NCBI GenBank assembly: GCA_009861545.1
Contig: VXME01000088.1
Span: 1 to 56,054, forward strand
Reading direction: 5' to 3'
Source: Acidobacteriota bacterium
GTDB taxonomy: Bacteria; Acidobacteriota; Vicinamibacteria; Vicinamibacterales; UBA8438
Length of the DNA stretch: 56,054 bases
The translations under genes were made by a program, and so were the position numbers. Positions 52,753 to 56,054 of this stretch are shown in pieces; positions within the stretch are counted from its first letter, which is position 1, and the number at the start of each line of letters is the position of its first letter. Under the pieces are notes generated by a model, which was not told where the DNA came from, did not search any database, and saw only the letters and a program-made list of their open reading frames with translations.

Positions 52753-53559
52753 CTACCTTCCGCGACTGGTCTCGCGCAATCGCCGAATCTGCCGCACCGC
52801 CGCGTCGATCTGCAGCTCCATGATCTGCTCGCCGTACTCGGCGGTCGCGCGTGTCGGGTTCCCGGACACGCCGCTGCCGTCGCCGCGCGTGCCGGGCGCC
52901 ATCTGGTCGATGCGCAGCAGTGACGGCTCGAGGAACAGCAGGGTCGACGTGTCGTGCATGCCGGCGTGCGAGCCGACGTCCTCCTCGCGCTCGCCCTGCG
53001 CGACGAGCCACTCGTCTCCCGGCCCCGGGTAGTAGTCGGTCAGGTGGTGCACGCGCGCCGATGCGCCCGCCCACTCTGCGTTGAGCCGCTCGGCCACCGC
53101 CGCCTGCGACGCCTGGTTGCCGCCGCTGTCTCCCATCAGCGCGATGTCGACGAACCCGTGCTGCCGGAGGCTGCGCGCCGCGTACTCCAGGACCTGCTCG
53201 AACACCTCGGGCGGCGTCGTGATCGTGCCGGGAAAGCGCATGTGGCCGCTCGGCGGATCGACGTTCCCCTCGGGTACGTACGCCATCACCGGCGCCACCA
53301 GCGCGTCGCCCAGCCGCCGCGCCGCCTCGCCCGCCTTGTGCCGGACCAGGTAGTTGTGCTTGCCCAGCACCATGTGCGGCCCGTTCTGCTCGGTGCCGCC
53401 GGTCGGGATGATCACCGTCGTGACGCCTGCCGCGAGCTTGTCGCGCACTTCGGTCCAGGTGAGCTCTTCGAGGAACACCGTGTCGGGCGGCTGGGCCAGT
53501 GGGGTGACGGTCAGGCTGAGAATGGTCAGGCCGAGAATCAGAGCCGGTGCGAATCGCAT
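52753..53559 (-). CDS. Exported creatininase-family protein with altered metal ligands
   Basis: 268 residues; ATG 53559 with GGAGA upstream; signal peptide ends TVTPLAQ. Family blocks: IIPTGGTEQNGPHMVLGKHN, ALMGDSGGNQ, SHAGMHDTSTLLFL. In creatininase the first block is normally EQHGPHLP-GTD; here His is Asn in EQN and the Asp after G is replaced by KH, so two metal ligands look changed. The family covers creatinine amidohydrolase and MftE/formamide hydrolases. Activity may be altered or lost. Divergent from the CARF activator. Confidence 0.8.
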   Translation of the reverse strand: MRFAPALILGLTILSLTVTPLAQPPDTVFLEELTWTEVRDKLAAGVTTVIIPTGGTEQNGPHMVLGKHNYLVRHKAGEAARRLGDALVAPVMAYVPEGNVDPPSGHMRFPGTITTPPEVFEQVLEYAARSLRQHGFVDIALMGDSGGNQASQAAVAERLNAEWAGASARVHHLTDYYPGPGDEWLVAQGEREEDVGSHAGMHDTSTLLFLEPSLLRIDQMAPGTRGDGSGVSGNPTRATAEYGEQIMELQIDAAVRQIRRLRETSRGR

Positions 53560-53693
53560 GGATGTCTCCGTGATTGGGTGACGCTCGACTAGTCTACCGC
53601 TCGCCCGCTCGATCGGCTCGCTGCCGGCTCGTCTTCCATGCCGCATCACCCGTCGTGCTACATGAATTTCCCTCCCCATGACGCCAGAAACCT

Positions 53694-53699
53694 TATGAT
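53694..53699 (+). promoter_or_regulatory. -10 box TATGAT of the CARF activator
   Basis: TATGAT ends six bases before the GTG at 53706, so transcription would begin at or next to the start codon, implying a leaderless message. There is no ribosome site near this GTG, which fits. Confidence 0.45.
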
Positions 53700-53705
53700 C
53701 AACGC

Positions 53706-55226
53706 GTGACCGCCGTGCTCGCTGCCTGGATCGGCCAGACGGATCTGGACTGCGCGAACGGCAGAAGGCCCGGCCCCGGTCCCATCGGCAGCGTGGTAGC
53801 CGCCCGTTCCTTCGACGCACTCGTGTTGCTGTCGAACTACGAACCGCCGCAGAACCGCGCGTTCGTGGACTGGCTGGCCGAGATGGACGCACCCCCCGTC
53901 CATCTGAGACCGGAGCCGCTGGACGACCCGACCGACTATGGGGCCATCCACGCCGCCGCGGCTCGCGCGCTGGAGTATGCTCGCGAGACGTTTGCCCCGC
54001 AAGTCGATCTGTCCATCCACGTCAGCCCCGGCACCCCGGCCATGCAGGCAATCTGGGTGCTGCTCGCCAAGACCCGCTACCCCGCCGAGCTGATCCAGTC
54101 GCACGAGAAGACCGGCGTCCGGACCGTCTCCGTGCCGTTCGACATCGCAGCGGAGTACGTGCCGGCGCTGCTGCGCGAGACCGACGACAAGCTGACCCGC
54201 CTGACCGCCGGGCTGCCGCCCGAGTCGCCGGCGTTCGACCGGATCATCGGTCGCAGCCCGGCGCTGGGCCGCGCCCGCACGCGCGCCCGGCGCATCGCTC
54301 CGCACGACGTCACCGTGCTCATCGAAGGCGAGTCCGGCACCGGCAAGGAACTGTTCGCACGCGCGATTCACGCCGAGAGCCGCCGCCGCGGCGGACCGTT
54401 CGAGGAGGTCAACTGCGGCGCGCTGCCGGAGGGACTCGTCGAATCGCTGCTCTTCGGCCATGCCCGCGGCGCGTTCTCCGGCGCCGTTCGCCCGCACGCC
54501 GGTCACTTCGAAGCCGCCGGTGGCGGAACCCTCTTCCTGGACGAGATCGGGGAGCTCCCGCTGCCCGCGCAGGTCAAGATGCTCCGCGCGCTGCAGGAGA
54601 AGACCGTCCGGCGGCTCGGATCGGACAAGTCGATTGCCGTCGATGTCCGGATCATCGCCGCCACGAACCGTGACCTGCGGGCCGAGGTAGCGGCAGGTCG
54701 TTTCCGGGAGGATCTCTACTACCGCATCGCAACCGGCATCGTTCGACTCCCGCCGCTCCGCGAGCGCCAGGGAGACCTGACGCCGCTCATCGACCACTTC
54801 CTCGCTGCCGCGAACCGCAAGTTCGCCGATCAGCCTGGCGTCGAGCAGAAGACTCTTTCTCCCCCGGCAAGGAACCTTCTGTTGCGGCACCCCTGGCCCG
54901 GCAACGTGCGGGAACTCCAGGCGACCATCGACCGGCTGGCACTGTGGGCGCCCGGCGCGGCGGTCACCGCCGACGACGTCCGGGAAGAGCTGCTCAGGAC
55001 GGTTCAGGACGAACGGGGCAACCTGCTCGGCCGGCCGCTGGGCAACGGGCTGGAGCTGCCGACCCTGGTTGCCGATCTCGCCCGCCACTACCTCGAACGC
55101 GCGCTGGCCGAAGCCGACGGCAACAAGACCCGGGCGGCCGAGCTCGTCGGCCTGCCGAGCTACCAGACGCTCACGAACTGGATGAAGCGGTACGATGTGA
55201 CGCTTCCGGGCAGGGCGCGCCGCTGA
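53706..55226 (+). CDS. RtcR-like sigma-54 activator with N-terminal CARF-type sensor
   Basis: 506 residues, close to RtcR size. About 1-165 form a Rossmann-like domain: [12 protein letters not shown] opening, [11 protein letters not shown], a [16 protein letters not shown] helix, and [23 protein letters not shown], whose SPGTPxM loop resembles the ligand loop of CARF domains; [17 protein letters not shown] closes it. The AAA+ domain follows: [15 protein letters not shown] (Walker A near 210), [11 protein letters not shown] near 255 (Ser for the usual Thr in GAFTGA), [10 protein letters not shown] (Walker B), [12 protein letters not shown] Fis-like HTH ([21 protein letters not shown]) ends it. 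CARF domains bind cyclic oligonucleotides or RNA ends, so this is an induced enhancer-binding activator, probably of the operon that follows. Confidence 0.85.
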
Positions 55227-55229
55227 TGA

Positions 55230-55245
55230 TGGCACGCTCGTTGCT
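55230..55245 (+). promoter_or_regulatory. Sigma-54 (-24/-12) promoter
   Basis: TGGCACGCTCGTTGCT matches the consensus TGGCAC-N5-TTGCW at all key positions: GG at 55231-55232, GC at 55243-55244, correct spacing. It starts four bases after the stop of the CARF/sigma-54 activator and ends 16 bases before ATG 55262. Predicted transcription start is about 55255. Its position makes the downstream ATPase operon the obvious target of the activator. Confidence 0.8.
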
Positions 55246-55261
55246 TACTCGTTGGGACGAG

Positions 55262-56029
55262 ATGGCGGACAAGACCATGCCGGAAGAACGCAATGGACGC
55301 CCGGACACGGATGCCCCGGCTGCCGCCGGCGCGAGCGGCGACGCCTCCGTCGCCCGGACCTCCGATTCGGCAGTCGCCGCGTCGCAGGACGGAAACGAGC
55401 GTGTCGACGTGTCCGCGCCTCCCTTGGCGAAGGCGGCGGCCCCGCTGATCACCGCCGTCGAGATCGAGAACTTCAAGGGCATCGGACGCCCGATGCGGGT
55501 CGAGTTCCGGCCGATCACCCTGCTGTTCGGCAACAACAGCGCCGGCAAGAGCACCGTGCTCCACGCGCTCTGCTACGCGCACGAGATCCTGAGCCATCGC
55601 AACGTCGACGTTCACGAGACCGATATTGGAGGCGACCGGATCGACCTGGGCGGATTCCGCAACCTCGTCCACGCGCACGATCCCGCTCGGCCCGTGCGGC
55701 TCCGTTTCGACTTGAACCTCGAAGACTGGCGCATTCCCCAGGGGCTGGACGAAAAGCTCGCATCACCACTGGACGTGCGGAGCGGAAACGCCGACGGGTC
55801 AATGTTCCAAGGGTCCGAGAGACCCAGCTCCGGATGGATTGAGCTCCAGGCCAAGCTGACAGACGACGAGCAACCGGTGCTCTCCAGCTACGAGATCGGC
55901 GTCAACGACGCACGCGTCGGGCGTCTCCTCCCACGACAGCCGACCGGCGTGTCCCTGGAGTTCGACCCGACGCACCCCCTGCTCGAACGGAGTCTGCGAC
56001 CTAGGAGTCTGCGCCGTAGAACGGCGTAG
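55262..56029 (+). CDS. AAA/SMC-like ATPase, 3' truncated
   Basis: The partial frame gives 255 residues. ATG 55262 is chosen because it lies just downstream of the sigma-54 promoter; ATGs at 55226 and 55229 would lie in or before the promoter. After an Ala/Asp-rich tail of 65 residues, ITAVEIENFKGIGRPMRVEFRPITLLFGNNSAGKSTVLHALCYA is the N-terminal half of an AAA_15/OLD/PtuA-like ATPase (Walker A near 90-98). The signature and Walker B parts are missing. From 56001 the reading frame enters the hairpin repeat (SLRPRSLRRRTA) and stops. Such ATPases are common in anti-phage systems, usually with a nuclease partner, which would lie beyond the contig. Confidence 0.75.
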   Translation: MADKTMPEERNGRPDTDAPAAAGASGDASVARTSDSAVAASQDGNERVDVSAPPLAKAAAPLITAVEIENFKGIGRPMRVEFRPITLLFGNNSAGKSTVLHALCYAHEILSHRNVDVHETDIGGDRIDLGGFRNLVHAHDPARPVRLRFDLNLEDWRIPQGLDEKLASPLDVRSGNADGSMFQGSERPSSGWIELQAKLTDDEQPVLSSYEIGVNDARVGRLLPRQPTGVSLEFDPTHPLLERSLRPRSLRRRTA

Positions 56030-56054
56030 ACTTTCTAGTCAGGCCCGGTTGGGC
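56001..56054 (+). repeat. Dispersed hairpin repeat, copy E (contig end)
   Basis: CTAGGAGTCTGCGCCGT, AGA, ACGGCGTAGACTTTCTAG, TCAGGCCCGGTTGGGC. The 12-bp stem has one mismatch, and both ends carry CTAG. It matches copy B base for base over most of its length, and the contig stops where copy B continues GGCAATCGTCGCC. A GGAGTCTGCG doublet at 55989 and 56004 flanks the junction with the ATPase gene. Confidence 0.8.

Follow-up and report, generated by a model that had tools for sequence, protein, structure and literature searches.

A predicted sigma-54 promoter at the stop codon of a CARF-domain activator gene, and a putative portable induction cassette for defense operons

The window analyzed here is a whole contig of 56,054 nucleotides (VXME01000088.1, assembly GCA_009861545.1) from an Acidobacteriota bacterium of the UBA8438 lineage. 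Near its end lie a gene for an enhancer-binding protein with CARF, AAA+ and helix-turn-helix (HTH) domains, hereafter the activator, and the 5' part of an ATPase gene, separated by a gap of 35 bases (activator TGA at 55224-55226, ATPase ATG at 55262). Within this gap sits an element, TGGCACGCTCGTTGCT (55230-55245), that is almost certainly a sigma-54 promoter, both here and across the family of loci with related activators. It is likely that this promoter serves a defense operon and forms part of a compact regulatory cassette contained within the activator gene.

The element begins four bases past the activator stop and ends 16 bases ahead of ATG 55262, and its GG (55231-55232) and GC (55243-55244) show the fixed spacing of -24 and -12 boxes. 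The pattern TGGCACN5TTGCW has a single zero-mismatch match in the whole window, and it is this one. At the window's base composition, about 0.03 exact matches are expected per window and about 6e-6 per 35-base gap. The first-pass annotation had claimed a consensus sigma-54 element at the junction and had judged a chance match there improbable, and both claims are borne out. The motif by itself is not enriched. Scanning the window with up to two mismatches returned 13 sites against 15.2 expected, which is the chance level, and genome-wide the pattern TGGCAYRN4TTGCW has five exact matches against six for a reversed control pattern. Since there is no genome-wide excess, the case for 55230-55245 rests on position and conservation. 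Separately, the exact strong sigma-54 sites of this genome number just five, and one of them (G000:C111:7401-7416, minus strand) lies about 1 kb from rpoN (C111:5895-6368).

Conservation was assessed in 80 loci from many phyla, retrieved with a CARF alignment, with promoter counts made on 64 complete activators or on 68 activators. In the window's own family the element stays at the junction with its -24/-12 spacing fixed while the spacer letters drift. It is identical to that of the window in G185 and G183, varies to TGGCACGGACGTTGCT in G160, TGGCATGGTCGTTGCA in G162 and TGGCACGCGCCTTGCT in G168, and in G166 (CGGCATGCGAATTGCT) is shifted by 40 nucleotides. More broadly, 42 of the 64 complete activators carry a site no more than one mismatch off between -25 and +60 of the stop, in 29 of them an exact one, while such sites occur in 0.41% of 200-nucleotide control windows and at the stop of 0/11 generic enhancer-binding protein genes. 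We regard a test of spacing, which conditions only on the -24 half, as the cleanest. TGGYA is found within -12 to +6 of the stop in 46 of the 68 activators. In 37 of these 46 junctions the -12 half follows at precisely the distance expected of a sigma-54 promoter, and all other spacings tested account for one. The position of the element relative to the stop ranges from -19 to +40 with the consensus unchanged, which argues that the element is not a coding by-product. Exact matches no commoner genome-wide than the reversed pattern are what one would see if the site were a chance match or a by-product of coding and no promoter at all, but the exact spacing at these junctions, and a consensus that stays as its position moves, make that reading scarcely credible. 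A gene for sigma-54, rpoN, is present in this genome (PF04552, 1.4e-64) and in 39/39 of the relatives' genomes checked. With rpoN present and the element kept at the activator/effector junction in relatives, the earlier sigma-54 reading stands, and we consider the promoter established as far as sequence allows.

The activator is a full-length match to the PADLOC family RtcR_PspF2 (CARF-AAA-HTH; 626.7 bits over positions 2-480 of 481), and Pfam recognizes a sigma-54 AAA+ domain, its lid and a Fis-type HTH. It carries the motifs GESGTGKE and GAFSGA, which fits contact with sigma-54. The genomes encode many enhancer-binding proteins, any of which might drive a real promoter at this site and leave the neighboring activator without the main regulatory role. 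We think this improbable, as the element abuts the stop codon of this particular activator family across phyla while the downstream genes change. By Pfam it does not qualify as RtcR proper, its RtcR domain scoring 16.0 bits, below the curated cut-off of 23.1. No RtcA or RtcB was found among the downstream representatives scanned, a subset of the neighbors, and a search of phage records with the CARF domain gave no match. A PADLOC family search across the phylum was unusable as a census because generic enhancer-binding proteins give a match in every genome.

Two further sets of sites accompany the activator gene. In loci of many phyla, the region upstream shares a block in which ACAAGA-N2-TCTTGT occurs near -45 and near -25 of the activator start, a spacing of about 20 bp. 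At least one copy is present in 49/73 loci, at 8.8 hits per kb versus 0.25 elsewhere. This pair overlaps the apparent activator promoter and looks like an operator. The motif was taken by eye from these upstream regions before it was tested in the coding region, where scanning the loci revealed matches at one constant location, about -342 relative to the stop, and a second site some 20 bp before it. In the window this embedded pair, site A (AGAAGACTCTTTCT) and site B (GCAAGGAACCTTCT), lies 363-383 bp ahead of the sigma-54 promoter.

The embedded pair is under the strongest synonymous constraint in the activator gene. Our codon shuffle permuted synonymous codons within each gene, keeping the protein and its codon usage, and gave a background standard deviation of 2.1 over all positions. 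Both sites stand far outside this background (Table 1), and site B is the top-scoring position in the window family (z = 10.3), in the type I restriction-modification (R-M) set (15.9) and in the other ATPase loci (7.6). At site B the window family uses the rare codons CTT, TCT and GCA, which make up 7-9% of the codons for their amino acids. A simple sliding-window measure of synonymous identity, taken across six members of the family, rises only mildly, at codons 361-400, so the motif-specific shuffle was needed. Five plasmid loci, found afterwards, serve as a small held-out set. Four of the five have a near-match to site B at -336 to -360, and a sigma-54-like site, one or two mismatches off, lies near the stop in four of the five. 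We read the embedded pair as a putative intragenic enhancer.

These observations suggest a mechanism in which the activator, with its CARF sensor, AAA+ motor and Fis-type HTH, is produced from its own promoter and its dimers bind the pair of sites in its own codons, upstream of the sigma-54 promoter. Binding of a ligand by the CARF domain would cause the activator to oligomerize, and the oligomer would then loop to the sigma-54 RNA polymerase waiting at the -24/-12 element by the activator stop codon and open it. Transcription would begin about 12 nucleotides past the -12 C, near the effector start codon, and the second pair of binding sites, over the activator's own promoter, would provide autoregulation. 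From the position and spacing of the promoter, the presence of rpoN, the domain architecture, the constrained embedded sites, the upstream motif and the differing downstream operons, all read directly from the sequences, we infer that the activator binds these sites, as well as the looping, the ligand, the transcription start and the autoregulation.

An alternative with the same promoter is that the adjacent activator acts on it while bound at the upstream operator pair or while free in solution, with the embedded sites binding something else. Enhancers can act over more than 1 kb, and the upstream copies are the better palindromes, matching at up to 12 of 12 positions. Even so, we judge this unlikely given that the embedded pair repeats both the upstream motif and its spacing of about 20 bp and bears the gene's strongest synonymous constraint. 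The constrained codons could instead preserve an RNA structure in the activator message and not a DNA binding site, since site A can pair with site B in single sequences (the window and L096). However, fold z-scores are just -0.8 to -1.8, no consensus structure was found, the hairpin is paired in 56% of cells with covariation not above shuffles, and the same motif pair sits upstream over the activator promoter. On the weak folds, the missing consensus structure and the lack of covariation we rejected a hairpin in place of a DNA site, and rate an RNA structure a shade less probable even than control by a different enhancer-binding protein.

Several observations weigh against the proposed cassette with its intragenic enhancer. 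About one third of the activators have no clear stop-codon site. In several type I R-M loci from myxobacteria (L089, L096, L099 and L113), TTGA replaces TTGC at -12 beside a perfect -24 half. Loci without a stop-codon site score just modestly lower at the embedded site (p about 0.03-0.04). The plasmid loci lack a recognizable upstream pair, though the embedded site is kept, and the window's own upstream operator is weak, with 8 of 12 positions. Finally, the target operon appears damaged in this genome.

The placement of effector start codons relative to the element suggests that effector 5' leaders are very short, with the ATG near the expected +1. An ATG lies 27-33 nucleotides from the element's first T 22 times over 42 loci, versus about 4 expected from the background rate, a clustering first spotted by eye and then counted. 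The +1 in the window would fall near 55256. The first-pass annotation held that the promoter fixes the ATPase start at 55262. That start is plausible and is common to L034, but 55277, homologous to the start in L039, fits as well. Two further ATGs, at 55226 and 55229, overlap the activator stop, and their frame is closed by a stop in L034. The same annotation expected transcription to be silent until the activator is triggered, which goes too far. The activator and ATPase genes point the same way, and a search for terminator-like sites between them found none, so read-through could give basal expression.

The gene sets that follow the cassette differ among the loci. They include type I R-M (HsdR, HsdM and HsdS), a methylase with AAA proteins, a PcfJ-like protein, an Eco57I-type methylase, and the pair of an ATPase and a PLD-fold protein. 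The cassettes on plasmids of Rhodoferax antarcticus and Polaromonas naphthalenivorans (L156, L159) precede TerY-P-like VWA, PP2C, protein kinase and AAA genes. Mapped onto a tree of 62 activators whose deep branches are weak, the module labels require at least six changes where the minimum is two, which is consistent with the cassette having been joined to different effectors more than once. On balance we lean toward viewing the activator gene as a self-contained, portable induction cassette of about 1.6 kb, comprising sensor, intragenic enhancer pair and output promoter, that is combined across bacterial phyla with unrelated defense operons (type I R-M, methylase and AAA, TerY-P-like, ATPase and PLD-fold). 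Through it, an alarm sensed by the CARF domain would induce these operons, whole R-M operons among them, and the effector leaders would probably be very short.

The principles underlying this arrangement are known. PspF, another sigma-54 enhancer-binding protein, works from paired upstream sites and is autoregulated. It lacks a sensor domain and its target operon is divergent, whereas the window family has its enhancer-like pair inside the regulator's coding sequence. RtcR, the regulator of the RNA repair operon (rtcBA or rsr-yrlBA-rtcBA), is likewise a CARF, AAA+ and HTH enhancer-binding protein that works with sigma-54. It binds 5' fragments of tRNA ending in a 2',3'-cyclic phosphate and oligomerizes (PMC7790460). 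The rtcR gene is divergent from its target operon (PMC7790460, PMC9879122), while in the window family the promoter lies at the activator stop, the genes are co-oriented and the targets are of defense type. Makarova et al. 2014 (PMC4012209) described CARF NtrC-like proteins, the same protein class as the window's activator, noted their link to R-M and predicted sigma-54 activation of downstream genes. Our search of that text did not turn up the promoter location, the embedded pair, the upstream operator or the ATPase and PLD-fold module. Beyond it, we found no paper describing type I R-M driven by sigma-54 under a CARF regulator, with the 2020 CARF classification, which could describe one, outside the search. 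RptR is likewise a dedicated regulator of R-M genes, described (PMC12255303) as a repressor and not a sigma-54 activator. Within the literature searched, so bounded, the stop-codon promoter, the intragenic pair and the ATPase and PLD-fold module do not appear, and the compact, portable arrangement looks new.

This model predicts that a broad class of defense operons, complete type I R-M included, is induced on demand through a CARF alarm and sigma-54, and it names the DNA elements involved. An enhancer pair kept in coding sequence from Acidobacteriota to Pseudomonadota would, if true, be unusual in bacteria. A promoter and enhancer that travel in the regulator gene would offer a simple account of how one regulator is reused with many effectors. 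The model also raises the puzzle of how a cell survives when restriction and methylation switch on together.

Table 1. Features of the activator/ATPase locus in the window
Feature	Position	Strand	Basis
CARF-AAA+-HTH enhancer-binding protein (RtcR_PspF2), 506 amino acids	53706-55226	+	Pfam; PADLOC 8.1e-189
CARF domain of the activator	about 53706-54230	+	Pfam; PADLOC
Sigma-54 AAA+ domain of the activator	54243-54734	+	Pfam
HTH_8 domain of the activator	55083-55193	+	Pfam
Tentative, weak match to the operator motif (8 of 12 positions) with a -10-like box, TATGAT, at its end, 6 bases ahead of the GTG that starts the activator	53683-53699	+	Sequence and relatives
Embedded site A, proposed enhancer half	54847-54860	+	Synonymous-codon shuffle, z = 12.7 (62 genes), 7.8 (window family)
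Embedded site B, proposed second enhancer half	54867-54880	+	Synonymous-codon shuffle, z = 25.1 (62 genes), 10.3 (window family)
Predicted sigma-54 -24/-12 promoter, TGGCACG-CTCG-TTGCT	55230-55245	+	Sequence; exact-spacing conservation
5' part of AAA15/AAA_23-type ATPase gene, beginning at 55262 or 55277; homologous to relatives as far as 56002	55262-56002	+	Pfam, PADLOC, comparison with relatives
One end of a dispersed repeat that disrupts the ATPase reading frame and runs to the end of the contig	56001-56054		41 genome matches including the window copy; other end on contig C162

In relatives the ATPase gene is followed by a partner of about 320 amino acids, and the two are often present in duplicate. 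Neither Pfam nor PADLOC gives a clear match for the partner, and comparing its profile by sequence with solved structures gave no relative. Its C-terminal half has a PLD fold (Foldseek 6.7e-5; VIA-align Z 10.6, root-mean-square deviation 4.2 over 169 aligned residues, for the well-modelled part only). In place of the catalytic HxK motif it has HxRY, with H250 and R252 invariant in eight sequences, and whether it has PLD-type activity is uncertain. The ATPase of one relative (L025) matches the NsnB profile of the Menshen system (4.9e-41). We rejected an assignment to Menshen, which has NsnA and NsnC partners, because the partner proteins have no PADLOC match. A tandem second copy of ATPase and partner at L028:4840 (a duplicate of the 4858 region of L036) is preceded, right at its start, by a sigma-54-like site of its own, TGGCGCGCCCTTTGCT.

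In this genome the homology of the ATPase to that of L039 stops at 56002, where the dispersed repeat begins. The repeat has inverted ends (CTAGGAGTCTGCGCCG...CGGCGCAGACTCCTAG), and copies also occur in L003-L011 and on contig C162 (L150). The rest of the ATPase gene is found on C162, past the opposite end of such a repeat, and is followed by a shortened partner gene; relatives carry intact copies of the ATPase gene. Either the ATPase gene is interrupted by the repeat or the assembly broke within it.

A sigma-70 consensus scan of 53550-55500 gave no match. Activator genes often start a few bases past a -10-like box (L108, L066, L056 and L106), and the activator message may itself be leaderless.
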